In this document: positions 115 to 53,000 of the stretch, in pieces
How the letters are laid out: each line of letters begins with the position of its first letter
Position numbering within the stretch: position 1 is the stretch's first letter
From: Melaminivora jejuensis
GTDB taxonomy: Bacteria > Pseudomonadota > Gammaproteobacteria > Burkholderiales > Burkholderiaceae_C
Direction of reading: 5' to 3'
NCBI RefSeq assembly: GCF_017811175.1
Contig: NZ_JACWIJ010000002.1
Coordinates: 1,612,001 to 1,676,000 of the forward strand
Length of the DNA: 64,000 nucleotides
Made by a program: the position numbers and the translations under genes
The notes under the pieces: generated by a model
What the model saw: the letters and a program-made list of their open reading frames with translations, nothing else
Database searches by the model: none
Told to the model about the DNA's origin: nothing

Positions 115-162
115 GGAGTCTCCAGGGGGTTGGTAAGGCACGGGTGTGCTGGTTTTTTCAAT

Positions 163-210
163 GAAAACAGCCGCCAGCCCTTGCCAGGCAAGCGCTGACA
201 GCTATCTTTT
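163..210 (-). repeat. Comamonadaceae dispersed repeat, copy 1
   Basis: Intergenic copy of the family repeat, read on the minus strand as GATAGCTGTCAGCGCTTGCC followed by tggcaaggg. It lies between the stop of the acyl-CoA dehydrogenase and the start of the nitronate monooxygenase gene. Confidence 0.8.
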
Positions 211-231
211 CCATAGTTCCGGCAGGGGTGG

Positions 232-6776: not shown

Positions 6777-7783
6777 TGGCTGCCACGTCAGCCGCCTCCA
6801 CCTTGCGCGGCCCGCGCACCGCCCTGGCCGCGCGCTGGCAGCGCTGGTGGCAGGCCCGATTGCCGCGCACCGACACCCTGGAGCTGACCCAGCGCAACCT
6901 CTACATCCTGCCCACCGCCTCCGGCTGGATGCTGGCGCTGACGCTGCTGGTGCTGCTGGTGGCGTCCATCAATTTCCAGCTCAACCTGGGCTATGTGCTG
7001 ACCTTTCTGCTGGCCGGCAGCGCTGCCGCCAGCGTCCACGTCTGCCACGGCACGCTGCGCGGGCTGACGCTGCACCTGCTCGCGCCCGAGCCGCAATTCG
7101 CCGCCAGCGCCGCCGTGCTGGAGGTGCAACTGCACAGCACGCGCCGGCGCCCGCGCCGCGCCATCGCCCTGGCCGTGCGCGGCAGCGGCCAGCCCGAGCA
7201 GTGGGCGCTGGCCGATGTGCCCGCCGGCGGCAGCAGCACGGTGCAGATCGCCTTTGCCCCGCAGCGGCGCGGCCTGCACGAGCTGCCCACGCTGACGGCG
7301 CAGACGCTGTACCCGCTGGGCGCCTTCCGCGTCTGGACGCTGTGGCGGCCGGCTGCCCAGCTGCTGGTCTATCCGCAGCCCGAGACCCACCCGCCGCCCC
7401 TGCCGGTGGGTGCGCCGCGCGCCGGCAGCGGCGCCAGCGCCAGCCAGCAGGGCAGCGGCGAGTTCGACGGCGTGCGCGCCTGGCGCCAGGGCGACACGCT
7501 GCGCCAGGTGGTCTGGAAGAAAGCCGCCAGCGTACTGGCCAGCGGCAGTGGCGAGCTGGTCAGCCGCGATGCCCAGCGCAGCCAGAGCCTGGAGCTGTGG
7601 CTGGACGCCGCCGCCACCGGCCTGGCCGACCCCGAGGCGCGGCTGGCACGGCTGGCCGCCTGGGTGCTGCAGGCCGACCGGCTGGGCCTGGAATATGGCC
7701 TGCGCCTGCCGGGCCGGCACATCGCACCGGACAGCGGAGCCGCCCACCGCCGCGCCTGCCTGGAGGCACTGGCACTGTGCTGA
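6776..7783 (+). CDS. DUF58 domain-containing membrane protein
   Basis: 335 residues. The ATG at 6776 overlaps the moxR TGA (TGATG), implying translational coupling; a GTG three bases earlier is also possible. Two hydrophobic segments lie at about residues 45-90, followed by a beta-rich region and the DUF58 signature GSGEFDGVRAWRQGDTLRQV near residues 220-245. DUF58 proteins are partners of MoxR ATPases. The context (MoxR before, TgpA-like after) supports a periplasmic or envelope quality-control complex, but no reaction can be assigned. Confidence 0.92.
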
Positions 7784-7792
7784 GAATATCAG

Positions 7793-7847
7793 TCAAATAC
7801 GGCCCAAACCCAATGCAGGCAAGCGCTGTCAGCTATGCTTTTGATAC
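7793..7847 (-). repeat. Comamonadaceae dispersed repeat, copy 2
   Basis: Minus-strand orientation copy (ATAGCTGACAGCGCTTGCCT on the reverse strand, then the GGTTTGGGCC arm). It fills most of the gap between the DUF58 and transglutaminase genes without breaking the operon order. Confidence 0.8.
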
Positions 7848-7883
7848 TACAGACATGCTGACGACATGCAGGAAGGCGCAGCC

Positions 7884-12221: not shown

Positions 12222-12288
12222 CGGCAACGGGATGCGACGCCGATTGTGCGTCCTGCCGACCTGCCCGGCAGTTTTCAGGCCTCTGCTT

Positions 12289-12343
12289 TTGCTATTTTAA
12301 ATATAGCTTCCAGCGCTTGCCAGTCAATGGTTTGAGGCCGAAA
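12289..12343 (+). repeat. Comamonadaceae dispersed repeat, copy 3 (overlaps tsaD 3' end)
   Basis: Plus-orientation copy (ATAGCTTCCAGCGCTTGCC, then GGTTTGAGGCC). Its GGTTTGAGGCC arm is read on the opposite strand as the last codons of tsaD (SASNH, stop at 12324). Confidence 0.8.
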
Positions 12344-13376
12344 TGGCATCCAATGCCCAGCGCGGCTTGACATCGAACTGGTAGTCGCGCTGGGGCTGCG
12401 CCAGGCCAGCCTGCACGCGCATGGCGGCGGCCATGGCGATCATGGCGCCGTTGTCGGTACACAGATGCAGCTCGGGGTAATGCACGCGCACGCCGCGCTG
12501 CGCGCACGCTGCATCGAGCTGGGTGCGCAGTTGCCGGTTGGCGCCCACGCCGCCGGCCACCACGACGCGCTGCAGCCCAGTGGCATCCAGCGCCTTCAAG
12601 GTCTTCCTGACCAGCACCTCGACGATGGCGGCCTGCGTGCTGGCGGCCAGGTCGGCGCTGCGCTCAGGCAGTTGCGCGCCCAGTTTGCGCGCCTGGGTCA
12701 GCACGGCGGTCTTGAGGCCGGCAAAGGAAAAATCCAGGTCGCCGCTGTGCAGCAGCGGACGGGGCAACTTGAAGGCGCGCTCGTCGCCTTTTTCTGCCAG
12801 CCGCGCCAGCGCCGGCCCGCCAGGGTAGCCCAGGCCCAGCAGCTTGGCCGACTTGTCGAAGGCTTCGCCGGCGGCGTCGTCGATGGTCTCGCCCAGCAAC
12901 TCGTAGCGGCCCACGCCATCGACGCGCATGAGCTGGGTGTGGCCGCCCGAGACCAGCAGCGCGACGAAGGGAAATTGCGGCGGGTCGGCGCTCAGGAAGG
13001 GCGACAGCAAATGCCCTTCCAGGTGATGCACGCCCAGCACCGGGCGATCGAGCGCTGCCGCCAGCGCGCAGGCCACGCCGGCGCCCACCAGCAGCGCGCC
13101 GGCCAGGCCCGGCCCGCGCGTGTAGGCCACCAGATCGACCTGGGCCAGCGTGCAGCTGGCCTGCTGCAGCACATGGCGGGTCAGCGGCAGCACGCGGCGG
13201 ATGTGGTCGCGGCTGGCCAGCTCGGGCACCACGCCGCCGTAGGCCTGATGCATCTCGATCTGGCTGTGCAGGGCGTGCGCCAGCAGTTCGGGCGTGCGCC
13301 CCGGCGCGCTGGTGCGCACCAGGGCCACGCCGGTTTCGTCGCAGGAAGATTCAATGCCCAGGATCAGCTCGCTCAT
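12324..13376 (-). CDS. tsaD: tRNA N6-threonylcarbamoyladenosine synthase, TsaD (Kae1/Gcp)
   Basis: Catalytic subunit of the complex that adds threonylcarbamoyl to A37 of ANN-decoding tRNAs; cytoplasmic and essential in most bacteria. 350 residues. ASKHA-fold landmarks: [10 protein letters not shown] at 7-16, [15 protein letters not shown] near 84-98, the iron-binding H118xxxH122 in [18 protein letters not shown] near 145, and the C-terminal [14 protein letters not shown]. The final residues come from a dispersed repeat, so the C-terminal tail is probably lineage-specific. It is expected to work with TsaB, TsaC and TsaE encoded elsewhere. Confidence 0.97.
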
Positions 13377-16100: not shown

Positions 16101-16212
16101 GGTCAGGCCCTGGAGATGCATCGGTGCCGCATGGTAGGCGCGCCGCGCCCCCGATCTGCCAATCCGGCCACAGCCAGCACGAATGTTGACGAAGCAACCC
16201 ACTTGTCTTGAT

Positions 16213-16266
16213 ATCCTTTTGATAGCTGACAACGCTTGCCAGACAAGGGCTTGAGCCGCTTTTTGC
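16213..16266 (+). repeat. Comamonadaceae dispersed repeat, copy 4
   Basis: Plus-orientation copy (GATAGCTGACAACGCTTGCC, then aagggcttgag) between the divergent YidB-like gene and the RND efflux operon. Confidence 0.8.
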
Positions 16267-16458
16267 ATAAATTTCAGGCATATCGGTGGCATTTTCCTGC
16301 CCACGAGCGCCACCCGCAGGCACCAGGGCCGGATCGTGTAAAGAAGGATGAAGCCCGCCGGCAGTGGCAGCCTGCCAGGCCGGAGCGTGCGACAGTACGG
16401 CCTTTTGCCCGCCAGCCTACAGCCCGCCCCGGGCTGCTGCCCTCGCCTCCAGCCATCC

Positions 16459-20943: not shown

Positions 20944-22529
20944 CAGCGCTGCGTCTGCTCCCGCCCCTTCCCGCCCGCGCCCTGCGCCCGGCTTTGCGCG
21001 CTGCGCTGCTGGCGGCACCGCTGCTGCTGGGCGCCTGCACCTCGCTGGCGCCGCCGTACGAGACGCCAGCGCTGCCCGTGCCGGCCACCTTCGATGCGGC
21101 CACCGCAGACCCAGACCCGATAGCGCCGGCCTGGACGCCCAAGGGCCTGACCGCCCGCGAGTCCTTTGTGCTGGACGCGCGCCTGCGCACCCTGCTGGGC
21201 CTGGCGCTAGCGGACAACCGCGAACTGCGCGTGGCCATGCTGGCGGTGGAGCGCGCGCGCGCCCAGTACGGCATCGCCCAGGCCGAGCGCCTGCCCACCT
21301 TGAGCGCCGCCGCCAGCGCCAGCCGCACGCGCACAGCCGACGACCTGGCCGCTGCCGGGCGCGGCAACACGGCCAGCCTCTACAGCGCCAGCATCGGCCT
21401 GGCCAGTTGGGAGATCGACTTCTGGGGCCGCGTGCGCAACCTCAACGAAGCAGCGCTGCAGGACTTCCTGCGCAGCCAGGCCAGCCGCGACAGCGTGCGC
21501 GTGGCCCTGGCTGCCGAGCTGATGCTGGCCTGGCTGAACCTGGATGCCGACGCGCGCCGCCTGCAACTGGCGCGCGCCACCCTGGCCACGCGCGAACGTC
21601 AATTGGCATTGACGCAGCGCACGCACGAGCTGGGCGCCGCCTCGGGCCTGACGCTGGCGCAGGTGCAGACCACGGTGGACGGCGCGCGCGCCGACGCTGC
21701 CGCCTTCCAGGCGCAGGTGGCACGCGGGCGCAACGCGCTGGCACTGCTGGCCGGTCGCCCGGTGCCGGACAACCTGCTGCCGGCCAGCGTCAGCCAGCCA
21801 CCGCCAGCGCCGGAGGGGCCAGACGGGCACAGCGCACAGAACGTACAGGAGACACAGGAGACACCCGATACGCAGCAGGCCGTCCCGCGCCTGCCCGAAG
21901 CGGCTGCACCCGCCACCGCCCTGCCCGCCCTGGCGGCGGGCGCGCCCTCGCACCTGCTGCTGGCGCGGCCCGACGTGCGCGCTGCCGAGCACACGCTGGC
22001 CGCCAGCCAGGCGCAGATCGGCGTGGCGCGCGCGGCCTTCTTCCCCTCCATCAGCCTGACGGCCAGCGCCGGCACGGCCAGCAACGCCCTGTCCGGCCTG
22101 TTCGCCGGCGGCAACGGCACCTGGAGCTTTGCGCCGCAGCTTCGCCTGCCGATCTTCGACGCCGGGCGCAACCAGGCCAATCTGCGCGTGGCCGAGGTGG
22201 CGCGCGAGACAGCCCTGGCGCAGTACGAGCGCGTCATCCAGGTGGCCTTTCGCGAGGTCATGGACGCCCTGGCCGAGCGCACCACGCTGGACGAGCGGCT
22301 GGCCGCGCAGCGCTCGCTGGTCGATGCCACGCAGCGCACGCTGGTGCTGTCGCAGGCACGCTTTCGGCTGGGCGCGGACAACTACCTGGCGGTGCTGGAC
22401 GCCGAGCGCGCCCTGTACGCCGCACAGCACGGCCTGATCGCCCTGCAGCTGGCCGAGCAGGCCAACCGCGTGGCCCTGTACCGGGCGCTGGGCGGGCAGT
22501 GGCAGGTGGCTGCGGCAGATCGCGAGTGA
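20940..22529 (+). CDS. Outer-membrane efflux lipoprotein (OprM/NodT/TolC family)
   Basis: 529 residues. The ATG at 20940 overlaps the pump's stop, indicating coupling. The signal peptide ends at a lipobox LLLGACTS. The body has the two-fold repeated TolC architecture: YGIAQAERLPTLSAAASASR and SLASWEIDFWGRVRNLNEAA-like helices (first half), then QIGVARAAFFPSISLTASAG and LRLPIFDAGRNQANLRVAEV (second half). An Ala/Pro/Thr-rich insert near residues 285-335 is longer than usual. It provides the outer-membrane duct of the tripartite pump. Confidence 0.95.
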   Translation: MTALRLLPPLPARALRPALRAALLAAPLLLGACTSLAPPYETPALPVPATFDAATADPDPIAPAWTPKGLTARESFVLDARLRTLLGLALADNRELRVAMLAVERARAQYGIAQAERLPTLSAAASASRTRTADDLAAAGRGNTASLYSASIGLASWEIDFWGRVRNLNEAALQDFLRSQASRDSVRVALAAELMLAWLNLDADARRLQLARATLATRERQLALTQRTHELGAASGLTLAQVQTTVDGARADAAAFQAQVARGRNALALLAGRPVPDNLLPASVSQPPPAPEGPDGHSAQNVQETQETPDTQQAVPRLPEAAAPATALPALAAGAPSHLLLARPDVRAAEHTLAASQAQIGVARAAFFPSISLTASAGTASNALSGLFAGGNGTWSFAPQLRLPIFDAGRNQANLRVAEVARETALAQYERVIQVAFREVMDALAERTTLDERLAAQRSLVDATQRTLVLSQARFRLGADNYLAVLDAERALYAAQHGLIALQLAEQANRVALYRALGGQWQVAAADRE

Positions 22530-22539
22530 ATACAAACTA

Positions 22540-22600
22540 TCTTATTGATAGCTGCCAGCGCTTTCCTGGCAAGGGTTTCGGGCATTTTTTATCTAAAATC
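22540..22600 (+). repeat. Comamonadaceae dispersed repeat, copy 5
   Basis: Plus-orientation copy (TTGATAGCTGCCAGCGCTTT, then ggcaagggtttcgggc) between the efflux operon and cobA. Confidence 0.8.
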
Positions 22601-22699
22601 TGACGCTGCAGAACCATATAACCCGGCGTCATCACGCGCGTCGCACAATCGGCCCCGCCTTCACTGGCGCTCCTCCACCGCCGAAAGACGAACGACGCC

Positions 22700-23500
22700 A
22701 TGCAATCCACCCTCCACCCCTCTGCCGGCAGCTGCACCCTGGTGGGCGCCGGCCCGGGCGACCCCGAGCTGCTGACGCTCAAGGCCGTGCGCGCCATCGC
22801 TGCCGCCAGCGTGCTGCTGGTCGATGACCTAGTGGGCCAGGACATCGTCGCCCTGGCCAGCCCGGGCGCGCGCATCGTCCATGTGGGCAAACGCGGCGGT
22901 CGGCCCAGCACCTCGCAGGCCTTCATCGAAAAACTCATGGTGGCGCAGGTGCAGCGCGGCGAGCGCGTGGTGCGCCTCAAGGGGGGCGACCCCTTCATCT
23001 TTGGCCGTGGCGGCGAGGAGGTGCAGGCACTGCGCGCCGCCGGCATCGAGCCGGTGGTCATCAACGGCATCACCGCCGGCCTGGCCGGGCCGGCCAGTCT
23101 GGGCGTGCCGCTGACGCAGCGCGAACACGCCCAGGGCGTGCTGCTGCTGACCGGCCAGGGCCAGCCGGGCAGCGCCCCCACCGACTGGACGCTGCTGGGC
23201 GCGACGGCGCACCAGGCACGCCTCACGCTGGTCATCTACATGGGGATGCGCGGCGCGCAGGCCATCCAGGACGGCCTGCTGGCCGGCGGCCTGCCGGCAC
23301 ACACCCCGGTGGCCGTGGTGCAGCACGCCACGCTGGCGCACCAGCGCCAGGCGCTGACCACGCTGGCCGGACTGCACCAGAGCATCGTCCGCGAAGGACT
23401 GGCCAGCCCCAGCGTGATCGTCATCGGCGACGTGGTGCGCGGCGCGCAGGCGCTGGCGGATCGCGCCGCTGCGCCGCAGCCGCTGTGCATGGCTGGCTGA
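22700..23500 (+). CDS. cobA: Uroporphyrinogen-III C-methyltransferase (SUMT)
   Basis: SAM-dependent enzyme making precorrin-2 from uroporphyrinogen III, the branch point to siroheme (needed by sulfite and nitrite reductases) and cobalamin. 266 residues, single-domain form without the CysG dehydrogenase/ferrochelatase part. Motifs: VGAGPGDPELLTLKA at 15-29, GKRGGRPSTSQ, VVRLKGGDPFIFGRGGEE near 93-110, and GITAGLAGPASLGVPLTQRE. It stands alone between a repeat and a binding-protein gene; no precorrin-2 dehydrogenase gene is adjacent. Confidence 0.95.
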   Translation: MQSTLHPSAGSCTLVGAGPGDPELLTLKAVRAIAAASVLLVDDLVGQDIVALASPGARIVHVGKRGGRPSTSQAFIEKLMVAQVQRGERVVRLKGGDPFIFGRGGEEVQALRAAGIEPVVINGITAGLAGPASLGVPLTQREHAQGVLLLTGQGQPGSAPTDWTLLGATAHQARLTLVIYMGMRGAQAIQDGLLAGGLPAHTPVAVVQHATLAHQRQALTTLAGLHQSIVREGLASPSVIVIGDVVRGAQALADRAAAPQPLCMAG

Positions 23501-23672
23501 GAGCGTCGCGCACGCATCAGCACACCCGGGTTATTCCCCGCCCCGCAGCCGGGGACATGCCGGAACAATCGGCGCCCAGCCCGCTGGGGGGCCATGCTGG
23601 AGGTCTGCCACGGCCTGCCAGCCAGCCTGCATCCGGCCTCAACCTGCTCCCCGGGAGCTTCAGGAGACATGC

Positions 23673-24872
23673 GTGCCCACAGATCCACAGCGCGATTCAT
23701 GCGCCTCCCCCGATGACGGCCGGCGCAGCGTGCTGCGTGGCGCGGCGGCCAGCGCCGCCGCCCTGCTGACCCTGCTGCATGTGCCGACGCTCATGGCGCA
23801 GACGGCGCGCTCCGGCGATGCGCGCGGCGACATCCTGGTGGGCCGCTCCACCGCCCTGAGCGGCCCGCTGGCACCCTTCCTGGTGCCCATCCACGAGGGG
23901 CAGGACGCCGCCGTGGCCGATTTCAACGCCCAGGGCGGCGTGGGCGGGCGCAAGGTGCGCCTGGTCACGCTCGACGATGGCTTCGAGGCCCAGCGCGCCC
24001 TGGACAACGCCCGCCAACTGGTCGAGCAACAGGGCGTGATCGCCCTGTTCAGCCAGGCCGGCACCTCCCAGGTCATGGGCCTACTGCCCTATCTGGAGCG
24101 CGCCCGCACGCCCCTGATTGCCGTCTATACCGGCAGCCCGGCGCCGCGCACTGCCGGCAGCGCCTGGCTGTTCACGACCAGCCCGAGCTATGTCGATGAG
24201 CTGCACCAGATCGTGCGCAACCTGGTCTCCATCCAGACCACGCGCATCGGCATCGCCTACGAGGACAACGAGTTCGGCAAGCTGACGCTGCCACTGGCCG
24301 AGCAGGCCATTGCCGCCGAGGGCGCCAGCATCGTCGGCACGCAGGCCGTGCGCAGCAAGGGCGACAACGCCGCCGACGCCGCCCGGGCGCTGGCGGCCAA
24401 GCAGCCCCAGGCGGTGCTGATGATCGCCGCCGGCCCGCCCGTGGTGGCCTATGTGCGCGCCCACCGGGCGCACGTCGGGGTGCCGCTGTACACGCTGTCG
24501 CTGGGCGCCGGGGCGCAGGTCATCCGCGCCCTGGGCGACGACGCGCGCGGCCTGGCCGTGGCACGCTCGACACCCTCGCCGCGCCGGGCCAATCTGCAGA
24601 TCACGCGCGAGTTCCAGGCGTCCATGAAGCGCCACAACCTGGAAGCCGACTACGACCGCTATGTCGGCTATCTGGATGCGCGCGTGCTGCTGGAAGGCCT
24701 GCGCGCCGCCGGCCCTGCGGCCAGCAGCGGCGCCGAGGTGGCGCGCGCCATGGAGGGCCTGGGCCAGCTCGACCTGGGCGGCATGACCTACCGCTTCGGC
24801 CCCGGCCAGCGCCACGGCTCGCGCTACGTGGACATCGCCGTCATCGGCCCGGGCGGACAGTACCTGCGCTGA
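23673..24872 (+). CDS. ABC transporter substrate-binding protein, branched-chain amino acid (LivJ) type
   Basis: 399 residues. GTG start at 23673 with CAGGAG 6 nt upstream; the nearby ATG at 23669 is out of frame. A twin-arginine-like export signal (GRRSVLRGAAASAAALLTLL) ends near LMAQT. Mature fold: ILVGRSTALSGPLAPFLVPI, GRKVRLVTLDDGFEAQRALD, and a C-terminal VDIAVIGPGGQYLR. Third orphan periplasmic receptor in the window, without permease or ATPase genes. The ligand is unknown; amino acids or small carboxylates are typical. Confidence 0.9.
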   Translation: MPTDPQRDSCASPDDGRRSVLRGAAASAAALLTLLHVPTLMAQTARSGDARGDILVGRSTALSGPLAPFLVPIHEGQDAAVADFNAQGGVGGRKVRLVTLDDGFEAQRALDNARQLVEQQGVIALFSQAGTSQVMGLLPYLERARTPLIAVYTGSPAPRTAGSAWLFTTSPSYVDELHQIVRNLVSIQTTRIGIAYEDNEFGKLTLPLAEQAIAAEGASIVGTQAVRSKGDNAADAARALAAKQPQAVLMIAAGPPVVAYVRAHRAHVGVPLYTLSLGAGAQVIRALGDDARGLAVARSTPSPRRANLQITREFQASMKRHNLEADYDRYVGYLDARVLLEGLRAAGPAASSGAEVARAMEGLGQLDLGGMTYRFGPGQRHGSRYVDIAVIGPGGQYLR

Positions 24873-24937
24873 GGCCAGGCGCAGCGGCAGCGGCGCCTGG
24901 GCGACAATCGCCGCCCCTTGCACCACCGCTGCCTGCC

Positions 24938-26185
24938 GTGCCCCAGCTTTCTCCTTTCTTCGACGCCGTCATCATCGGCGCCGGCGCTGCCGGCCTGTTT
25001 TGCGCCGCCCGGGCCGGCCAGCGCGGCCTGCGCGTGCTGCTGATCGACCACAGCGCGCGCGTGGCGGAAAAGATCCGCATCTCGGGCGGGGGCCGCTGCA
25101 ACTTCACCAACCGCAGCCTCGATGCCCAGGCGCCGCAGCGCCACTTTGTCGGCCACAACCCGCAGTTCGCCCGCGCCGCACTGTCGCGCTACACGCCGCA
25201 GGACTTCATCGCGCTGGTGCAGCGCCACGGCATTGCCTTCCATGAAAAGCACAAGGGCCAGCTGTTTTGCGACCGCTCGGCCGAGGACATCATCGCCATG
25301 CTGCTGGCCGAATGCGCCGACGGGCGCGTCGAGCGCTGGCAGCCATGCAGCGTCAAAAATATAGTGTTTTTGGCCTCAAACCCAGGTGGGACAAGCGCTG
25401 ACAGCTATCAAATCGATACCGAACGGGGCCTGGTGCAGGCGGCGCAGGTGGTCATTGCCACCGGCGGCCTGTCGATCCCCAAGATCGGCGCCAGCGATTT
25501 TGGTTACCGCGTGGCGCAGCAGTTCGGCGTGCCGCTGGTCGAGCGCCGCCCCGGCCTGGTGCCGCTGACCTTCGACGGCCAGGCCTGGGCGCCCTACGCC
25601 CACCTGGCCGGGCTGGCCCTGCCGGTGGCCATCAGCACCGGCAGCAAGAAGGGCCGCACCAGCTTCGACGAGGACTTGCTGTTCACCCATCGCGGCCTGT
25701 CCGGGCCGGCGGTGCTGCAAATCTCCAGCTACTGGCAGCCAGGCACGCCGCTGGCCATCGACCTGGCGCCTCGGGAGCAATTGCGCGAGGCACTGCTGCA
25801 GGCCAAGGCACGCTCGCGCCGGCTGCTGGCCAACGAGCTGGCCAGCTTGCTGCCGGCCCGGCTGGCCGACGCCTGGGTCAGCCAAAGCGCTGAATGGCAG
25901 CGTCCCATCAACGAGGCCAGCGACAAGGCCCTGGCGCGCCTGGCCGAGCACCTGGGCCGCTGGGAGCTGACGCCCACCGGCACCGAGGGCTACAAAAAAG
26001 CCGAAGTCACCCTGGGCGGCGTGGACACGCGCGCACTGTCGGCGCACACCCTGGAGTGCAAGGCGCAGCCCGGGCTGCATTTCATCGGCGAGGTGGTGGA
26101 CATCGCCGGCTGGCTGGGCGGCTACAACTTCCAGTGGGCCTGGGCCAGCGCGGCGGCCTGCGCGCAGGCGCTGGTGGCGCATTGA
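24938..26185 (+). CDS. BaiN/HI0933-like NAD(P)/FAD-dependent oxidoreductase with embedded repeat
   Basis: 415-residue flavoprotein; GTG start. The FAD Rossmann motif VIIGAGAAGLFCAARAGQRG lies at about 11-30, followed by ISGGGRCNFTN near 50, the family hallmark. Later segments are VVIATGGLSIPKIGASDFGY, LLFTHRGLSGPAVLQISSYW and the C-terminal GEVVDIAGWLGGYNFQWAWA. Residues about 139-158 (KNIVFLASNPGGTSADSYQI) are encoded by a copy of the dispersed repeat inserted in frame, in a variable stretch before the ATGG flavin motif. The physiological substrate of the family is not established. Confidence 0.92.
   Translation: MPQLSPFFDAVIIGAGAAGLFCAARAGQRGLRVLLIDHSARVAEKIRISGGGRCNFTNRSLDAQAPQRHFVGHNPQFARAALSRYTPQDFIALVQRHGIAFHEKHKGQLFCDRSAEDIIAMLLAECADGRVERWQPCSVKNIVFLASNPGGTSADSYQIDTERGLVQAAQVVIATGGLSIPKIGASDFGYRVAQQFGVPLVERRPGLVPLTFDGQAWAPYAHLAGLALPVAISTGSKKGRTSFDEDLLFTHRGLSGPAVLQISSYWQPGTPLAIDLAPREQLREALLQAKARSRRLLANELASLLPARLADAWVSQSAEWQRPINEASDKALARLAEHLGRWELTPTGTEGYKKAEVTLGGVDTRALSAHTLECKAQPGLHFIGEVVDIAGWLGGYNFQWAWASAAACAQALVAH
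25353..25413 (-). repeat. Comamonadaceae dispersed repeat, copy 6 (inside a coding gene)
   Basis: Minus-orientation copy (TTGGCCTCAAACCCAGG, then acaagcgctgacagctatca) lying wholly within the BaiN-like gene and translated in frame without a stop. Confidence 0.85.
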
Positions 26186-26221
26186 GCGGCCGCACCGGGC
26201 GGTCGCATTGCGCAGCGGCGA

Positions 26222-26235
26222 TTGATTCGCGTCAA
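26222..26235 (+). promoter_or_regulatory. Candidate FNR/ANR-type box upstream of the cellulase gene
   Basis: TTGATTCGCGTCAA matches the TTGAT-N4-ATCAA consensus at nine of ten positions. It lies 122 nt before the cellulase ATG. Could be chance; the two stronger boxes in the cbb3 cluster show that the regulon exists in this genome. Confidence 0.4.
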
Positions 26236-26356
26236 TCGTTAGCCAAAAGCGAATGGGCCAAACCAGGCCCGGCTGGGACAATCGCGGCTGCGCTCCGTGC
26301 GGGCGCATCCCCGGCCCGCGATTTCGTCGCAGACACTCTCCACCGCCACGGGCACC

Positions 26357-27841
26357 ATGTATTTCAAGCGTTCGACCTTGTTTCCCCACTCTTTCTCCGT
26401 CTCCCGCCTGCTTGGCGGCGCGGCCCTGGTGGCCAGCATGTTGATGGGCGCCCTGCCCGCCTGGAGCTATGAGGCGCGCGCCGGTGGCATCGTCGATGCC
26501 GCTGGCAACGGCATCCAGTTGCGCGGCGTGAACTGGTTCGGCGCCGAAACCGCCACCAACGTGGTGCATGGCCTGTGGGCGCGCAACTGGCAGGACATGA
26601 TCGATCAGATGCAGCAGCAGGGCTTCAACGCCGTGCGCCTGCCGTTCTGCCCGGCCACGCTGCAGGGCGTGGTGCCATCAGCCATCGACTACAGCCGCAA
26701 CCCCGACCTGCAGGGGCTGGACTCGCTGCAGGTGCTCGATGCCGTGGTGCTGGAGCTCAGCCGCCGTGGCATGTACGTGCTGCTCGACCACCACACCCCC
26801 GATTGCCAGACCATCAGCGAGCTGTGGTACACGCCCGGCTACAGCGAGGCGCAGTGGCTCGATGACCTGGCCTTCGTCGCCCGGCGCTACCGCGAGGTGC
26901 CCGGCGTCATCGGCCTGGACATCAAGAACGAGCCGCATGGCGCTGCCACCTGGGGCACAGGCAACCCGGCCACCGACTGGAACCTGGCCGCCGAGCGCGC
27001 CGCAGCCCGCATCCTGCCGATCGCGCCGCACTGGCTGATCGCCGTGGAGGGCATAGGCGCCAGCGCCCACTGCTCCAGCCAGGAGCCCCACTTCTGGGGC
27101 AGCAACATCGAGCCGCTGGAGTGCCAGCCGCTGGCCATCCCGGCCAGCCAGCTGCTGCTGACGCCGCACACCTACGGCCCCGATGTCCATGAGCAGCCGT
27201 ACTTCAGCGCGCCGAACTTCCCGGACAACATGCCGGCCATCTGGGAGCAGCAGTTCGGCCGCTTCGTGCAAAAGGGCTACACGCTGATGCTGGGCGAGTT
27301 CGGCGGCAAGTACGGCCAGGGCCATCCGGGCGACGTAGCCTGGCAGAACAAGCTGGTGGACTACCTGATCGCCAAGGACATGCGCAGCGGCTTCTACTGG
27401 TCTTGGAACCCCAACAGCGGCGACACCGGCGGCATCCTGCAGGACGACTGGCAGACGGTACGCAGCGACAAGGTGCAGCTGCTGCAGCGGCTGTGGGGCA
27501 ATGTGGGCGGCGGCGCGCCCACGGCTCCGGCGCCCTCGACGCCGGCGCCACCCGAGCCGCAGCCAGCCCCGCCGCAGGCCCCGGTCGAGGCAGCGTTCGC
27601 CTTCGAGCACATCGTGGACAACGACTGGGGGACGGGCTACTGCCAGCGCGTGAAGGTGCGCAACACCGGCTCCACAGCCGGCGAGTGGCTGCTGATCACG
27701 CCCATCGAGGGGCACGTCAACAGCCTGTGGAGCGCGCTGTGGCTGCAGCAGGACAACCTGCTGGGCGCCATCGGCCTGGACTGGAACCGCACCCTGGCAC
27801 CGGGCGCCAGCACCGAGTTCGGCTTCTGCGCGCAGCGCTGA
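26357..27841 (+). CDS. Secreted endoglucanase, glycoside hydrolase family 5, with C-terminal carbohydrate-binding module
   Basis: 494 residues from the ATG at 26357, just before a clear Sec signal ending ALPAWS. The GH5 catalytic domain spans about 35-375: RGVNWFGAE, acid/base E192 in DIKNEPHG and nucleophile E314 in MLGEFGGK, plus HTYGPD and GFYWSWNPNSGDTGG. A Pro/Ala linker (about 382-409) joins a roughly 85-residue tail with WGTGYCQRVKVRNTGS and two cysteines that resembles a CBM2 cellulose-binding module. It should hydrolyse beta-1,4-glucan outside the cell, probably after type II secretion. Monocistronic between a flavoprotein gene and rpsU. Confidence 0.93.
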   Translation: MYFKRSTLFPHSFSVSRLLGGAALVASMLMGALPAWSYEARAGGIVDAAGNGIQLRGVNWFGAETATNVVHGLWARNWQDMIDQMQQQGFNAVRLPFCPATLQGVVPSAIDYSRNPDLQGLDSLQVLDAVVLELSRRGMYVLLDHHTPDCQTISELWYTPGYSEAQWLDDLAFVARRYREVPGVIGLDIKNEPHGAATWGTGNPATDWNLAAERAAARILPIAPHWLIAVEGIGASAHCSSQEPHFWGSNIEPLECQPLAIPASQLLLTPHTYGPDVHEQPYFSAPNFPDNMPAIWEQQFGRFVQKGYTLMLGEFGGKYGQGHPGDVAWQNKLVDYLIAKDMRSGFYWSWNPNSGDTGGILQDDWQTVRSDKVQLLQRLWGNVGGGAPTAPAPSTPAPPEPQPAPPQAPVEAAFAFEHIVDNDWGTGYCQRVKVRNTGSTAGEWLLITPIEGHVNSLWSALWLQQDNLLGAIGLDWNRTLAPGASTEFGFCAQR

Positions 27842-27870
27842 GGCCCAGCGAGGGGCGTGGGTCGATACGC

Positions 27871-27876
27871 TATAAT
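27871..27876 (+). promoter_or_regulatory. Probable -10 element of rpsU promoter
   Basis: A perfect TATAAT hexamer 30 nt after the cellulase stop and 134 nt before rpsU. No good -35 is visible at 17 nt spacing, so the element may be extended or activator-dependent. Confidence 0.5.
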
Positions 27877-27896
27877 GCCCGGCTTTGCTGGCAAAA

Positions 27897-27927
27897 GCCC
27901 GTCGGCCAATACTAGTTACAGACGGGC
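27897..27927 (+). other. Hairpin in the rpsU 5' leader
   Basis: A 7-bp perfect stem (GCCCGTC / GACGGGC) around a 17-nt loop in the presumed rpsU leader, about 80 nt before the start codon. There is no U-run, so it is not a terminator. It could be part of autogenous control of S21; that is inference only. Confidence 0.4.
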
Positions 27928-28004
27928 AAAACCGCCGTCCATGGCTTTCGGGCCCGATCTTCCCGACAACCCTCTGGCGGCATAATTTTGGAATCAACCA
28001 CCTG

Positions 28005-28217
28005 ATGACCACCATCCGAGTAAAAGAGAACGAACCCTTTGACGTGGCCCTGCGCCGCTTCAAGCGCACCATCGAAAAGCTGGGCCTGCTGACCGACCTG
28101 CGCGCCCGCGAGTTCTACGAAAAGCCCACTGCCGAGCGCAAGCGCAAGAAGGCCGCTGCCGTCAAGCGCCACTACAAGCGCGTGCGCAGCATGCAACTGC
28201 CCAAGAAGCTGTACTGA
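28005..28217 (+). CDS. rpsU: 30S ribosomal protein S21
   Basis: 70 residues, the normal length for S21, starting [20 protein letters not shown] and ending SMQLPKKLY. It is highly basic with the [20 protein letters not shown] helix. It binds 16S rRNA near the anti-Shine-Dalgarno region and helps initiation. The ATG at 28005 is set by homology; upstream in-frame codons do not resemble S21. It is followed by a strong terminator and then yqeY, the usual neighbour. Confidence 0.98.
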
Positions 28218-28240
28218 TCGGCCTGCGACCGGCACCTGCC

Positions 28241-28277
28241 AAACCCGCGCTGGGGACGCCGAGCGCGGGTTTTTTTG
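28241..28277 (+). terminator. Rho-independent terminator of rpsU
   Basis: Hairpin CCCGCGCT / AGCGCGGG with a 10-nt loop followed by a T7 run, 24 nt after the rpsU stop. Confidence 0.9.
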
Positions 28278-28320
28278 TTTTTCATTTCTACACCTTCTGC
28301 ACCTTTCGGAGAGTCAGTTC

Positions 28321-28767
28321 ATGAGCCTGAAAAACCGCATCACCGAAGACATGAAGACAGCCATGCGCGCCCGGGACAGCGAGCGCCTGGGCACCATCCG
28401 CATGTTGCAGGCCGCCATCAAGCAGCGCGAGGTCGATGAGCGCATCGAGCTGGACGACGCCGCCGTGGTCGCCGTGGTGGACAAGCTGCTCAAGCAGCGC
28501 CGGGACAGCATCGCGGCCTTCGAGGCCGCCGGGCGCCAGGATCTGGCCGAGCGGGAGCAGGCCGAGGCAGCCGTGCTGCAGGCCTATCTGCCCGAGCGCA
28601 TGTCTGCCGAGGAGATCGAAGCCGCCGTGCGTGCCATCGTGGCCGAGCTGGGCGCCGGCGGCCCGGGCGACATGGGCAAGGTGATGGGCGCGGCCAAGGC
28701 CAGCCTGGCCGGCAAGGCCGACATGGGCCAGGTCTCGGCAGCCGTCAAGGCTGCCCTGGCGCGCTGA
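28321..28767 (+). CDS. yqeY: GatB/YqeY domain-containing protein
   Basis: 148-residue helical protein starting MSLKNRITEDMKTAMRARD, with GGAG upstream. It matches the YqeY family, related to the C-terminal tail domain of GatB: LGTIRMLQAAIKQREVDER, AAFEAAGRQDLAEREQAEAA, then YLPERMSAEEIEAAVRAIV and GKVMGAAKASLAGKADMGQV. The fold suggests tRNA binding; no enzymatic role is proven. It sits downstream of rpsU as in most proteobacteria, behind the rpsU terminator. Confidence 0.95.
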   Translation: MSLKNRITEDMKTAMRARDSERLGTIRMLQAAIKQREVDERIELDDAAVVAVVDKLLKQRRDSIAAFEAAGRQDLAEREQAEAAVLQAYLPERMSAEEIEAAVRAIVAELGAGGPGDMGKVMGAAKASLAGKADMGQVSAAVKAALAR

Positions 28768-28785
28768 TGCACCCGCACCCGCAGT

Positions 28786-28895
28786 CTGATTTACTCCTTT
28801 ATCGATAGCTGCTTGCGCTTGCCAGTCAACGTTTTCAACATGTTTCATGCCTGAAAACGAGACATAGCAAGCGCAATCAGCTATAATTATTATAG
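28786..28895. repeat. Comamonadaceae dispersed repeat, copy 7 (two half-copies head to head)
   Basis: A plus-oriented half (CGATAGCTGCTTGCGCTTGCC) at about 28800-28845 faces a minus-oriented half (CAAGCGCAATCAGCTAT) at about 28865-28883, making a large inverted repeat. The outer edge of the second half carries a perfect TATAAT (28883-28888), 40 nt before the dehydrogenase start codon. Confidence 0.75.
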
Positions 28896-40582: not shown

Positions 40583-41413
40583 TCAGAAAACCGGCGCGCG
40601 CTTGGCCAGGAAGGCGCCTATGCCTTCGCGGTGCTCGGCGCTGTCGGCATAGGCATAGGGGTCGGCCGGGGCTGCAGCCACTTCGTTTTCGATAGCTGAC
40701 AGCGCTTGTCCAGCAAGGCTTTGGGCCATTTTTGATGCTGAAAACGCCCGCAGCGTCTGCTTGTTCATGCGCGCCGCCTGAGGCGCCAGGGCAGCGATGC
40801 GGCGCACGCTGGCCAGGGCCTCTTGGGCCAATGTCTCGGGCGCCACCACCCGACTCAGAAAGCCCTGCTGCGCCAGCTCGGGCGCGCCGAAGGTGGCGGC
40901 CTCCAGCAGCATCTGGCGCGCCAGCACCTCGCCCACGGCGCCGGCCACCAGCGCCGCCTCGCGCGGCGCCATGGGAAAGCCCAGGCGCGCAATCGGCGCG
41001 CCAAAGCGCGCATTCTGCGCGGCGATGCGGATGTCGCAGCAGCTGGCGATCTCCACGCCCGCGCCCATGCAGGCGCCGGCGATGGCGGCGACGATGGGCA
41101 CGTCGCACGCCAGCATGGCCGACAGGCCACCCCAGACCTCGTCCTCATGAAAGGCGCGCAACTGCGCCGCGTCGAAGCGAAAGGCCGGGTATTCCGAAAT
41201 GTCGCCGCCGGCGCAAAAGGCCGTGCCGGCGCCCTCCAGCAGCACGCAGCGGATGCCGGCGTCGCGCTGGATGGCGAGGAACACCTCGCGCAACTGGCGC
41301 CACATGGCGCGCGACATGGCGTTGAGCCGGCCATCGTGGCGCAGCACCACGCGCACCACGCCCGGCCCGGCTTCGGCCTCGGTCAGCCGGGCGAATTCGA
41401 TTGCAGCAGTCAT
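40583..41413 (-). CDS. Enoyl-CoA hydratase/isomerase family protein in the malonate operon, with embedded repeat
   Basis: 276-residue crotonase-fold protein; ATG 41413 is preceded by AAGG (an ATG six codons earlier is less likely). Oxyanion-hole segments: AGTAFCAGGDISEYPAF and AIAGACMGAGVEIASCCDIR; then FGAPIARLGFPMAPREAALV. Near the C-terminus residues about 223-243 (with SKMAQSLAGQALSAIENE) are encoded by an in-frame dispersed repeat, inside the region of the last helices. It sits between malonyl-CoA decarboxylase and matB; its role there is unclear, perhaps another malonate-derived or acyl-CoA substrate. Confidence 0.9.
   Translation of the reverse strand: MTAAIEFARLTEAEAGPGVVRVVLRHDGRLNAMSRAMWRQLREVFLAIQRDAGIRCVLLEGAGTAFCAGGDISEYPAFRFDAAQLRAFHEDEVWGGLSAMLACDVPIVAAIAGACMGAGVEIASCCDIRIAAQNARFGAPIARLGFPMAPREAALVAGAVGEVLARQMLLEAATFGAPELAQQGFLSRVVAPETLAQEALASVRRIAALAPQAARMNKQTLRAFSASKMAQSLAGQALSAIENEVAAAPADPYAYADSAEHREGIGAFLAKRAPVF
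40686..40746 (+). repeat. Comamonadaceae dispersed repeat, copy 9 (inside a coding gene)
   Basis: Plus-orientation copy (CGATAGCTGACAGCGCTTGT, then ccagcaaggctttgggcc) fully within the enoyl-CoA hydratase gene and translated in frame on the opposite strand. Confidence 0.88.
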
Positions 41414-43021: not shown

Positions 43022-43107
43022 GGAAGAAGCCGGCTGGCGATGGGAGTGGAATGAATGGATGGAGTAAAGAAAGTGCAGGCCTCGGGTGCCATGCATTGGT
43101 TGATGTT

Positions 43108-43164
43108 TACCAAAAATGATAGCTCCCAGCGCTTGTCTGGCAATGGTTTGAGGCCAATTTGATG
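43108..43164 (+). repeat. Comamonadaceae dispersed repeat, copy 10
   Basis: Plus-orientation copy (TGATAGCTCCCAGCGCTTGT, then ggcaatggtttgaggcc) between lgt and the malonate operon. Confidence 0.8.
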
Positions 43165-43165
43165 C

Positions 43166-43963
43166 TTATCTTGCCTGGCGTTGCGCATACAGCCACAGGG
43201 CGCTGCCGGCCAGAACCATGGGCACGCACAGCCACTGGCCCATGGACAGGCCCAGGCCCAGCAGGCCCAGGAAGCTGTCGGGTTCGCGGAAATATTCGGC
43301 GACAAAGCGCAGCACGCCGTAGCCGGCCAGGAAGGCGCCGGCCACCTCGCCGCGCTTTCTCGGGCGGCGCGCATACAGCCACAGCAGCGCGAACAGCAGC
43401 AGGCCTTCGAGCAGGAACTGGTAGATCTGCGAGGGGTGGCGCGCCAGCATGGAGCCGCTTTGCGGAAACACCATGCCCCAGGGCAGATCGGGCGAGGCCA
43501 GGCGGCCCCACAGCTCGCCGTTGATGAAGTTGCCGATGCGCCCCGCCGCCAGGCCCGTGGGCACGCAGGGCGCGACGAAATCCGCCACCTCCAGCCAGGG
43601 CCGGCCACGCGAGTGGGCAAACCACAGCATGGCGCCGATCACGCCCAGCAGGCCGCCGTGAAAGCTCATACCACCCTGCCAGATGGCGAAGATCTCCAGC
43701 GGGTGCTCGGCGTAATAGCCAGGCTTGTAGAACAGGCAGTAGCCCAGCCGCCCGCCCAGCACCACGCCCAGCACGCCCAAAAACAGGATGTCCTCCACAT
43801 CCTTGCGCGTCCAGGCCAGCGACGCATAGGGCGGATGGCGCAGGCGCAGCGTGCCCAGCAGCATGAACAGGGCAAAGGCGGCCAGGTAGGTCAGGCCATA
43901 CCAGTGGATGGCCAGCGGCCCCACTTGCAGGGCCACAGGGTCGATATGCGGGTACATCAGCAT
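43166..43963 (-). CDS. lgt: Prolipoprotein diacylglyceryl transferase
   Basis: 265 residues from the ATG at 43963 ([12 protein letters not shown]); an ATG four codons upstream also exists. Integral inner-membrane enzyme, about seven helices, that adds diacylglyceryl to the lipobox cysteine of prolipoproteins. Signature segments: [20 protein letters not shown]-type [17 protein letters not shown], and the highly conserved [18 protein letters not shown]; then [18 protein letters not shown]. It would act on the several lipoproteins in this window. It is followed by a repeat and the malonate operon. Confidence 0.97.
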
Positions 43964-48413: not shown

Positions 48414-48911
48414 ATGGATGCGGGCAACGGCTTCGCCCAGCCAGCCTGGCAGGCGGCCTACCCGGCGCTGATGGCCAAGGCACGCGCCAACGGCATCGCA
48501 CTGCTGGCCGTCCGCAATTCGCGCCACTTCGCCGCCCTGTGGCCCGACGTGGAGCCCCTGGCGCGCGACGGCTTGGTGGCGCTGGCTCTGGTCAACAGCA
48601 TGGCCTGCGTGGTGACCAGCGGCGGCACCCGGGCGCTGTTCGGTACCAACCCCACTGCCTTTGCCGCGCCGCGCGCCGGGCACGACCCGCTGGTGTTCGA
48701 CCTGGCGACCAGCGCCATCGCCCCTAGCGAAGTCAGATCGCTGCGCGCCATGCCATCGCCGAGCGCTGCGAAACCCTGGCGCGCCCTGGGCGGAGCGAGC
48801 CAGACCCGCCAGCCGGGTGAGCGCCGCTACCGCCAGCGCGAACGCTTGCTGCAGGAGGGCGTGGCGCTGCCGGTCGGCACCTGGGCCGAACCGCAGCGTT
48901 TGGCAGGTCGG
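48414..48911 (+). pseudogene. Ldh2-family (malate/L-lactate dehydrogenase-like) oxidoreductase pseudogene
   Basis: Remnant of an NAD-dependent YlbC/Ldh2-type dehydrogenase. The central NAD-site region is readable: ALLAVRNSRHFAALWPDVEP, LALVNSMACVVTSGGTRALF, GTNPTAFAAPRAG and FDLATSAIA. The N-terminal 70-80 residues are missing, up to the 163-bp element. After SAIA a large internal block is gone, and the sequence resumes in a shifted frame (AIAERCETLAR) and then GERRYRQRERLLQEGVALP, the family's C-terminus. Full-length members have about 330-350 residues. It ends in a dispersed repeat. Confidence 0.75.
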
Positions 48912-48971
48912 CGGCTTGAAGGGAAACGCCTACAGCGCTTTCCCATCAATCGCTGACAGCTATTTTTTTGG
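48912..48971 (-). repeat. Comamonadaceae dispersed repeat, copy 11
   Basis: Minus-orientation copy, partly diverged (CTACAGCGCTTTCCC, then atcgctgacagctattttt), between the Ldh2-like pseudogene and the 3' end of dapA. Confidence 0.7.
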
Positions 48972-48979
48972 TAGCGCGA

Positions 48980-49904: not shown

Positions 49905-50003
49905 GATGCTATGAAAACAGGAGCTTCCAGCGCTTTATCTACAATGTTTTCAGCACAAAAATCATGCGAAAACCTTGCAAATCAAGCGCCAGCAGCTATG
50001 AAG
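49905..50003. repeat. Comamonadaceae dispersed repeat, copy 12 (two half-copies head to head)
   Basis: A plus-oriented half (GAGCTTCCAGCGCTTTATCT) at about 49905-49950 and a minus-oriented half (CAAGCGCCAGCAGCTAT) at about 49970-50000 form an inverted pair between dapA and the indolepyruvate oxidoreductase. Confidence 0.7.
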
Positions 50004-50011
50004 TTTGATGC

Positions 50012-53000
50012 TCAGGCGTTGCTGCGCAGGCGCTGCAGCAGCTGGGCCAGCTCGGCCTCGTAGGCCTGGCGCGCGGCCTCCTTCACGTGGCCGTAGCCGC
50101 GCACCTTCTGCGGCGCCTGGGCGATCTGCACGGCCAGCGCGTACTGGTCGGGCCGCGCCTCCTGCAGCAGGCGCTGCACCAGGGCCTCGAAGGCGTCCAC
50201 CATGGCGCGCTCGTGGCGGCGCTCCTCGGTGTGGCCGAACGGGTCGAGCGCCGTACCGCGCAAGAACTTCAGCCGTGCCAGCACGCCGAAGGCCGGCAGC
50301 ATCCAGGCGCCGAACTCGCGCTTCTTGTCGCCCAGCAGCGGCGGCGCCAGGTTGAAGGACAGGCGCGGCGCGCCCTCGAACTGCGCGGCGATCTGTTCGC
50401 GGAAGGCCGGCGCGGCGTACAGGCGCGCCACCTCGTACTCGTCCTTGTAGGCCATGAGCTTGAAAAAGCTCTGCGACACGGCGCTCGCCAGCTGCTCCTC
50501 GCCGGGCCAGACGCGCGACTCGTGCGTGCGCACGGCATCCACCAGCGCCTTGAAGCGCGCAGCGTAAGCGGCGTTCTGATAGCCGGTGAGGAAGTCGACG
50601 CGCAGCTGCACCGACTCATCCAGGCTGGCCGCCTGCTTGCGCTGTCCTGTGCCGATGTCCGCGCCGGCGCTGGCCGCCACGGCCTGCGGGTCGACCGCAT
50701 GACGGCGGCCCCAGCGGAAGGCGGCGATGTTCATCTTCACGGCCGCGCCGTTGAGCTCGATGGCGCGCTCGATGGCCTGGGCGCTCACCGGCACCAGGCC
50801 GCGCTGGTAGGCGGCGCCCAGCATGAACAGGTTGGTGGCGATGGCGTCGCCGCACAGGGCCAGCGCCAGGCGGCCCGCGTCCACTTGCTCCACGTTGCCC
50901 TCGCCCAGGGCGCGCACGATGGTCTTGACCAGCGGGTTGCCGGGGAACTGCAGATCCGGGTTCTGCGTGAAGGCGCCCGGCATGACCTCTTGCGTGTTCA
51001 CGATGGCGCGGGTGGCGCCCTTGCGCGTCATGGTCAGGGTGTTGCTGGCCGCGGCCACCACCAGGTCGCAGCCGATCAGCGCATCGGCCCCGCCGGGGGC
51101 CACGCGCACGGCGGCAATCGCCTGCGGCGTGGCGCCGAAGCGCATGTGCGTCCACACCGAGCCGCCCTTTTGCGCCAGGCCCGCCATGTCCAGCACGCCC
51201 ACGCCCTTGCCCTCCATGTGCGCGGCCATGCCCAGCAGCGCGCCGATGGTGACCACGCCGGTGCCGCCCACGCCAGTGATGATGAGGCTGTAGACGCCCT
51301 GCGCCAGGTCGGGCAGCTGGGGATCGGGCAGCGGCGCGTCCAGCACCTCTTTGCCCGCGGCCACGCCCTTCTTCAGCTGGCCGCCGCGCACGGTGACGAA
51401 GCTGGGGCAAAAGCCCTTGAGGCAGGAGAAATCCTTGTTGCAGGCCGACTGGTCGATGGCGCGCTTGCGGCCGAATTCCGTCTCCACCGGCACCACGGCC
51501 ACGCAGTTGGACTTGGCGCCGCAATCGCCGCAGCCCTCGCACACGGCCTCGTTGATGACTAGGCGCATGTCCGGATCGGGGAACTCGCCGCGCTTGCGCC
51601 GGCGGCGCTTCTCGGCGGCGCAGGTCTGGTCGTAGACCAGCACGCTGGTACCGGCCACCTCGCGCAGCTGGCGCTGCACCTCGTCCAGCGCGTCGCGGTG
51701 GTGGATGGTGACGCCCGGCGCCCAGCCGGTCACCCCGTCGTATTTGCCGGGCTCGTCCGTCACCACGGCGATGCGCGCCACGCCTTCCGCATGCACCTGC
51801 TGGGTGATGCGCACGGGGTCCAGCGGGCCGTCGTGGCGCTGGCCGCCGGTCATGGCCACGGCGTCGTTGTAGAGCACCTTGAAGGTGATGTTGGTCTTGG
51901 CCGCCACGGCCGCGCGAATGGCCAACATGCCGGAGTGGAAGTAGGTGCCGTCGCCCATGTTCTGGAACATGTGCGCGCGCTTGGAAAACGGCGCCTCGCC
52001 CACCCAGGCCATGCCCTCGGCACCCATCTGGGTGTAGCCCAGCGTGCCGCGGTCCATGCTCTGCGCCATCCACGAGCAGCCGATGCCGGCGTAGCCGCGG
52101 CTGCCCTCGGGGATGCGCGTGGAGGTGTTGTGCGGGCAGCCCGCGCAGAAGTAGAAGCTGCGCGCCATGACGTCCACCGCGCCCAGCACGGGCTTGCGCC
52201 GCGCCAGGGCGTGGGTCACGTCCAGCAGCGCCGGGTCGATCTCGGCCAGGCGGTGGCCCAGCACCTGGGCGATCATGGCGGCGTCCAGCGCCATCTCCAC
52301 GCGCAGCAGCTTGGCGCCGCGCTCGTCCTTCTTGCCGATAACCTGCGGCGCACCCTCCTGGCCATACAGGATGTCCTTGAGCTGCGCTTCCAGCAGCGAG
52401 CGCTTTTCCTCGATGACGATGACCTTGTCCAGGCCCAGGGCGAACTCGGCAATGCCCTCGGCCTCCAGCGGCCAGACCAGGCCGACCTTGTAGACCGCCA
52501 GGCCCAGCGCCTGCGCGCGCGCCTCGTCGATGCCGAGATCTGCCAGCGCCTGGCGCACGTCGAGCCAGCTCTTGCCCGAGGTGACGATGCCGATGCGCGC
52601 GCCCCCGCGCCGCCCGAACGCCACGCGGTCGATGCGGTTGGCCTGCGCGAAGGCCTGCACTGCCGCCAGCTTGTGGTTGACCAGGCGAAATTCCTGCGCG
52701 TGCGGCGTGTCGGGCAGGCGGATGTTCAGACCGTCCGCCGGCGCGTCCGGCAGCTCGGGCAGCGTGAAGGCCGGGCCGGCCTCGTCCACCTCCACCGAGC
52801 CCGATGCATCGGCCGTGTCCTTGATGCACTTCATGCCCACCCAGCAGCCAGAGTAGCGCGACAGCGCCCAGCCGTACAGGCCGTACTCGATCAACTCCGA
52901 CACACCGGCGGGCGAGAGGATGGGCATCTGCGCGTCCATCAGCGCGAACTCGCTCTGGTGGCAGGTGGTGGACGATTCGCAGGTGTGGTCGTCGCCCATC

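Follow-up and report, generated by a model that had tools for sequence, protein, structure and literature searches.

A dispersed 70-nt motif in Melaminivora jejuensis and related genomes, apparently built in place within and between genes: a putative uptake-like sequence

The window, the whole 64-kb stretch of Melaminivora jejuensis DNA that was analysed, carries an open reading frame for a BaiN/YhiN-like flavoprotein (371.9 bits against TIGR00275, with a cut-off of 183.8; PF03486 also matched). The initial annotation had described a repeat translated in frame inside this gene, in a variable stretch before the conserved ATGG motif, and had reported copies in other genes too. All of this was borne out: the repeat passes through the frame of 24938-26185 without a stop, its best placement being 25354-25423 on the plus strand (67 bits), the comparison of orthologues shows the stretch before ATGG to be variable, and the window offers a second example in an ORF around 40677-40746 (copy on the minus strand), which we take to be enoyl-CoA-hydratase-like and which our crude gene caller missed. 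In total, the window contains 16 copies of the motif. They are listed below with their scores and, where given, their presence between the same anchors in the congeners G003 and G004 and in the genome G001.

24938..26185, plus strand: TIGR00275 / HI0933-like (BaiN/YhiN-like) flavoprotein gene (ORF; TIGR00275, PF03486)
151..220, plus strand: motif copy, 76 bits; between the same anchors in G003 and G004
7782..7851, plus strand: motif copy, intergenic, 63 bits; between the same anchors in G003 and G004
12288..12357, minus strand: motif copy overlapping the end of a predicted gene, 70 bits; same anchors in G003 and G004
16207..16276, minus strand: motif copy, intergenic, 74 bits; same anchors in G004 and G001, not in G003
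22533..22602, minus strand: motif copy adjoining a predicted gene, 82 bits; same anchors in G003 and G004
25354..25423, plus strand: motif copy in the flavoprotein gene, reading in frame VKNIVFLASNPGGTSADSYQIDTE, 67 bits; same site in G003, G004 and G001
28790..28859, minus strand: motif copy, left member of an inverted pair (40 bp from centre to centre), 58 bits
28830..28899, plus strand: motif copy, right half of the pair begun at 28790, 53 bits
38822..38891, plus strand: motif copy, intergenic, 64 bits; same anchors in G003, G004 and G001
40677..40746, minus strand: motif copy in frame in the presumed enoyl-CoA-hydratase-like ORF, 72 bits; in G003, G004 and G001
43104..43173, minus strand: motif copy, 72 bits; found in G004 and, at only 21 bits, in G003, and missing from G001
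48909..48978, plus strand: motif copy overlapping the end of a predicted gene, 40 bits
49905..49974, minus strand: motif copy, inverted pair (40 bp) with 49945..50014, 43 bits
49945..50014, plus strand: motif copy, inverted pair with 49905..49974, 54 bits
56570..56639, plus strand: motif copy, 38 bits
58133..58202, minus strand: motif copy overlapping the ends of two predicted convergent genes, 59 bits

These copies belong to a dispersed family of 70 nt. An iterated 70-column weight matrix, applied with strands merged and a threshold of 10 bits, found 99 copies in 464 kb of the window's own genome (G000; the sample is the window plus 20 stretches of 20 kb each), and a recount under another threshold gave 101. 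Order-3 Markov sequence modelled on the same 464 kb gave 0 matches above 10 bits. The density in the sample is about one copy per 4.7 kb, which extrapolates to roughly 800 copies per genome. The consensus, cGgATTttgggTgAAATcgGCCTCAAACCCTTGCCaGGCAAGCGCTGgCAGCTATCAAATtaGtAGCaaa, has G or C at 35 of its 70 positions, and its information content of 56 bits is spread out over the 70 nt; the core is nearly palindromic, with copies detectable on both strands. Searched at no more than one mismatch, the G000 core gave 459 matches in the genome, against 0 for the reversed pattern. The ratio of variance to mean of the copy counts was 0.73 over 23 windows of 20 kb, a small sample.

Non-coding DNA is favoured: although 85% of the sample is coding, the crude gene caller placed only 25 of the 99 copies in predicted genes, and the 74 others, including 3 at sample edges, fall outside them. 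By flanking genes, 21 copies fall in divergent, 13 in convergent and 18 and 19 in the two same-strand arrangements. No terminator or promoter pattern and no bias in gene orientation emerges from these counts, and a terminator or promoter role for single copies was dropped on the same ground. All five close pairs are inverted (minus, then plus), four of them at exactly 40 bp. The pair at 28790-28899 is present in G004; G003 lacks it and has 112 nt less between the anchors, and in G001 it was not found. Judged by eye, the inner arms of this pair differ between G000 and G004 in such a manner that the inverted repeat is kept.

We dropped a reading of the motif as an RNA structure or riboswitch on the grounds that Rfam was blank and covariation absent: the window has no Rfam 15 match at gathering scores, and 22400-29000 has none up to E = 1; RNAalifold proposed 3 pairs for 40 copies, none with two-sided change; and the 45 strongest column pairs among 139 copies contained no run of nested pairs. 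Neighbouring motif columns alternate between A tracts and T tracts. Because stem covariation is absent and A and T tracts switch, recognition as double-stranded DNA is suggested. Two-fold features can be made out by eye, namely AGCGCTTG-N5-CAAGCGC in some dialects and GCTAT...ATAGC. Among the 20 sampled stretches outside the window, only L074, which holds metal-efflux genes (five proteins scanned), has 0 copies. Two have a single copy: L077 (55% GC), which holds transposases (five proteins scanned), and L080. The low-GC stretch L089 (62.7%) has 3 copies, which we count against a role in uptake. Y1_Tnp matches in G000 are limited to three fragments within 1.7 kb (L204-L206, C2 580122-581772), just past the motif-free L074.

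In the sample of 99, eleven copies sit within an open frame and have coding-like DNA on either side. We traced six of these through orthologues of the host gene: the flavoprotein, a LytTR response regulator, a carboxyltransferase, a PNP_UDP-family phosphorylase, an ABC ATPase (Pfam) and the enoyl-CoA-hydratase-like protein. The remaining five are spread over four ORFs, of which one is a T2SSF gene and three had no Pfam match. Orthologues were called motif-bearing at a score above 10 and motif-free at 0 or below, and two rows at 0-10 were dropped together with loci unaligned across the site. The resulting numbers of bearing and motif-free orthologues are 17/50 (flavoprotein), 7/20 (regulator), 11/34 (carboxyltransferase), 9/15 (phosphorylase), 14/13 (ABC ATPase) and 10/7 (hydratase). 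As an inserted element would lengthen the proteins that bear it, insertion leads one to expect motif-free proteins about 23 residues shorter. A shortfall of 23 residues was seen in 0 of 139 motif-free orthologues across the six genes, the largest being 15. Net length change is zero in 28/34 carboxyltransferases, 13/13 ABC ATPases and 7/20 regulators, as well as in 2/50 flavoproteins, 3/15 phosphorylases and 0/7 hydratases. In the ABC ATPase the stretch is 52 residues long at 29 of the 30 loci, four of which belong to other families of the order; only L236, which aligns poorly, departs from this length.

For the flavoprotein, the initial annotation had the repeat adding about 20 residues, and this fails: none of the 50 motif-free orthologues aligned across the site is about 23 residues shorter, 32 being shorter by 7-9 residues, 11 by 2-6 and 7 equal or longer. 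At the motif site, the top two PDB relatives are shorter as well, 3v76 by 8 residues and 2gqf by 4. Among hydratases, 6/7 motif-free orthologues are shorter by 10-15 residues. Going by these per-gene counts, permissive loops gained some length, and the ABC ATPase and carboxyltransferase gained essentially none. The comparison with orthologues that had been proposed as a check on insertion thus upholds some gain in length (mostly 7-9 residues in the flavoprotein, 10-15 in the hydratase) and not the insertion of a whole block; whole-element insertion is largely refuted for the six genes by this length test. Both within and between genes, the motif appears to have been built in place by small changes.

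What this costs the genes is visible in their codons. In motif-bearing orthologues of the six genes, GC3 is 692/1539 = 0.45 inside the motif versus 0.85 outside; the motif-free orthologues show 2229/2764 = 0.81 inside and 0.82 outside. In the ABC ATPase of G000, the residues A-A-I-E-L-L-A are encoded by GCA GCT ATT GAA TTG CTA GCG, which is the right half of the motif. At positions whose residue is identical to that of G000, motif-free orthologues also use its codon in 294/911 cases (0.32) inside the motif versus 0.61 outside. Codon conservation among motif-bearing genes is equal inside and outside (0.66 and 0.66), and only the contrast with motif-free orthologues is telling. Residues are affected too: identity to motif-free orthologues is 140/311 = 0.45 inside and 0.63 outside in the ABC ATPase, 288/808 = 0.36 and 0.82 in the carboxyltransferase, and below the outside level within the motif in 6/6 genes, a result we count against our preferred explanation. 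As codons and residues both shift, the motif owes its spelling in these variable stretches in part to the choice of codons and in part to replacements that the protein tolerates.

Positions of the motif are conserved between genomes. Eleven of the 16 window copies fall in a stretch that maps to G003 and G004, one site not being evaluable in G001; copies at the same anchors and on the same strand were found for 8/11 in G003, 11/11 in G004 and 4/7 evaluated in G001. The intragenic sites, in the flavoprotein and in other followed genes, are likewise occupied in several genera. Copies at orthologous sites are only somewhat closer to each other than copies at different sites, with identities of 0.59 versus 0.49 (G003), 0.61 versus 0.54 (G004) and 0.54 versus 0.47 (G001).

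Each genome has its own version of the consensus, the differences lying mid-motif: G000 has AAACCCTTG.../CAAGCGCTG, G001 cAGCCCTT.../AAGGGC, G003 cAGTCGGCGTgaATcAAGCGC, G004 cAGCGCttG.../CAAGCGC and G027 CAGCGCttG.../cctGCGct. These dialects share much of a frame made of TTT, AAA, GGCC, AGCTAT, AAT and TAGC. In a leave-one-out cross-test of seven genomes (the matrices of G018, 10 copies, and G006, 11 copies, were left out), the genome's own matrix scored best in 6/7, the exception being G007 with only 12 copies. At the orthologous window sites, own matrices outscored that of G000 in 8/8 copies of G003, 4/4 of G001 and 8/11 of G004 (plus one tie), using matrices that include the scored copy. 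For coding copies, a test restricted to the intragenic site itself found the own dialect to be best of six in 16/29, against a chance expectation of about 5 (this supposes independence of the copies, which does not hold); the 13/29 that score best under another dialect count against our best explanation. Conserved sites combined with dialects mean that many copies change together yet stay put.

The motif model matches 19 of the 60 genomes searched, G000 included, and 0 of 24 genomes from other families of the order; its genome-wide counts saturate, as at most 84 candidates were scored per genome. At least 20 core matches (G000 core, one mismatch) occur in 29 of 250 family genomes, again including G000. 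Among the matches listed, the exact core is found in Acidovorax, Paracidovorax, Comamonas, Simplicispira, Ottowia, Diaphorobacter, Giesbergeria, Polaromonas, Rhodoferax and Melaminivora, and also in a few unrelated MAGs. Contigs of A. temperans contain the motif core.

Two genomes are of interest for the fate of the motif. On two genes, G002 is the sister of G000 within the genus (support 0.91). In 123 kb of its sequence, 0 copies scored above 30 bits, whereas 200 kb each of G000 and G001 contained 33 and 30; G002 retains 17 model matches genome-wide, and 8 weak matches above 15 bits in 123 kb versus 1 in the control. A search of the G002 genome gave no match to comEC, which could reflect a gap, as the assembly is fragmented. 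In 195 kb of G007 there are 8 copies above 30 bits, and the comEC of this genome (L416, C1 1830001-1845000) is in four pieces in different frames, either as a pseudogene or through assembly indels. On these sequences, both patterns would fit decay of the motif after loss of uptake. G022 speaks against uptake, as comEC is present and the motif absent (0 model matches genome-wide; 0 copies in 40 kb). As a family-wide predictor of the motif, comEC is not useful, since 240 of the 250 genomes have it and 29 are motif-rich. None of the 10 genomes without comEC has more than two core matches, which is uninformative because chance alone gives only about one motif-rich genome among them.

Taken together, we think it somewhat probable that the motif works like a DNA uptake sequence: the pattern would reflect accumulation in place and recognition in trans, with the natural-transformation machinery as the likeliest recogniser. 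This preference follows from the substitution origin and the dialects, which match the behaviour of USS and DUS, and from the reports on A. temperans and V. eiseniae discussed below. We infer that the motif is recognised in trans, and a protein would read it as double-stranded DNA, the recogniser of each species having a dialect of its own. Copies would accumulate in place by substitutions, and by small indels where a loop permits, mainly between genes and in permissive stretches of proteins. DNA carrying the motif would be preferentially imported by the transformation machinery, and alleles nearer to the current preference would more often be imported and recombined into the same locus. The outcome would be a genome studded with the motif, in which positions are kept and all copies follow a drifting preference.

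Known uptake sequences offer the closest likeness. As described in PMC1626085, the USS of Pasteurellaceae are overrepresented, orientation-neutral, mainly non-coding yet also found in coding DNA, and of substitution origin, being "not insertions" by the same gap test; A/T-rich flanking segments, sub-clade variants and some close inverted pairs are further points in common. The same source gives them a 9-bp core, a very strong consensus and a density of about 1 per kb, unlike the 70 bp, relaxed consensus and roughly 1 copy per 4.7 kb of our motif. The DUS of Neisseriaceae, in the description of PMC3630211, resemble it in their species dialects with an invariant part, their intragenic copies in permissive regions and their inverted pairs; they differ in being 10-12 bp long and in having a known binder, ComP, and their inverted pairs are tied to terminators, whereas our copies lack a terminator-like context. 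Because length, consensus strength and density differ, we do not class the motif as DUS or USS, and its role in uptake is only putative. Whether Comamonadaceae-type bacteria have independently evolved a third class of uptake sequence, represented by this 70-bp motif with its A/T tracts and two-fold core, strikes us as evenly balanced. BRE, as portrayed in PMC3110155, are dispersed repeats of Betaproteobacteria, including Comamonadaceae, with some intragenic copies; they measure about 90 bp, average 69% GC in Bordetella, form tandem groups and were reported at 29 copies or fewer. An identity with BRE was dropped on length, base composition and copy number, compared with the description in PMC3110155.

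The main rival holds that the motif is a repeated site for an intracellular chromosome-organising or regulatory protein, which co-evolves with its sites and has nothing to do with uptake. The two-fold consensus features, A/T tracts and 40-bp inverted pairs would fit a dimeric DNA binder, conserved sites and dialects need only some recogniser in trans, and G022, with comEC and without the motif, also speaks for it. However, PMC3630211 and PMC1626085 describe uptake sequences that are dispersed and have species dialects. The sampled copies also show no preferred gene context, and the few copies in two foreign-looking stretches and the comEC-less congener suit uptake better, although these samples are small. 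We therefore regard such a binding site as possible but rather unlikely.

Rickettsia palindromic elements insert into ordinary genes, where they are translated in frame and lengthen the proteins. The initial annotation had suggested a mobile repeat of this kind, which inserts into genes and is then translated, and the in-frame translated repeat in ordinary genes is indeed a likeness. Support for it lies in the motif-free flavoproteins, mostly 7-9 residues shorter, in the 6/7 motif-free hydratases shorter by 10-15, and in the one inverted pair, about 110 nt, that genomes either have or lack as a whole. Against an invading palindromic element stand the 0/139 motif-free orthologues lacking a 23-residue block and the ABC ATPase, which spells the motif by unusual codons at constant stretch length (13/13). 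Sites are shared by several genera, with each species showing its own version, and neither a hairpin palindrome nor hairpin covariation was found; moreover, the search of the genome for a REP-associated transposase turned up no more than fragments. This leaves such an invasion very unlikely. REPIN/RAYT repeats, which occur in hundreds of copies, also as inverted pairs, depend on a RAYT (Y1) transposase. Replication or gene conversion of this type among copies, overwriting older copies in place, could yield dialects; it would account for the high copy number, inverted pairs and species-specific consensus, and Y1 transposase fragments do exist in the genome. However, no intact Y1 transposase was found there, and RAYT mobilisation was dropped on finding Y1_Tnp fragments only. 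The motif also evolves in place inside conserved proteins: ancestral-like protein sequence, which overwriting should erase, is kept in the ABC ATPase and carboxyltransferase. Mutual identity among the 11 mapped window copies averages 0.56, which is too low for easy homologous conversion. We hold conversion of this kind to be most unlikely.

Returning to uptake, the accounts in PMC3630211 and PMC4212676 name sequence tags needed for it only for Pasteurellaceae and Neisseriaceae. The latter source, from 2014, reports that Acidovorax temperans gave transformants only with same-species DNA, and that Verminephrobacter eiseniae binds DNA selectively, with no tag named in that account. Homology or restriction could explain the species-limited transformation of A. 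temperans, too. For the DNA selectivity of A. temperans and Verminephrobacter, the motif is a concrete candidate tag, and its dialects would predict which species can exchange DNA. If a third class of uptake sequence is indeed involved, the dialects would be mating barriers and protein loops would have been reshaped genome-wide. In conserved enzymes, a signal at the DNA level dictates codons and residues, and mimics a translated insertion until orthologues are compared. We found no description of the motif in the open-access papers searched (subscription papers and preprints lay outside this scope).

Some further observations concern the sequences themselves. Flavoprotein orthologues at L064, L065 and L066 (G027, G054 and G046) match in two pieces near query residue 235 within one open frame, which suggests a further length-variable spot around that residue. 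Between contigs C1 and C2 of G000, several motif matches of C1 reappear in C2 over about 20-40 kb at a constant offset and with equal scores; part of C1 therefore seems to duplicate a stretch of C2, perhaps through assembly redundancy. Lastly, 48202-48377 and 56834-57009 of the window form a 176-nt inverted repeat, 95% complementary and 8.5 kb apart, with smaller inverted arms within.
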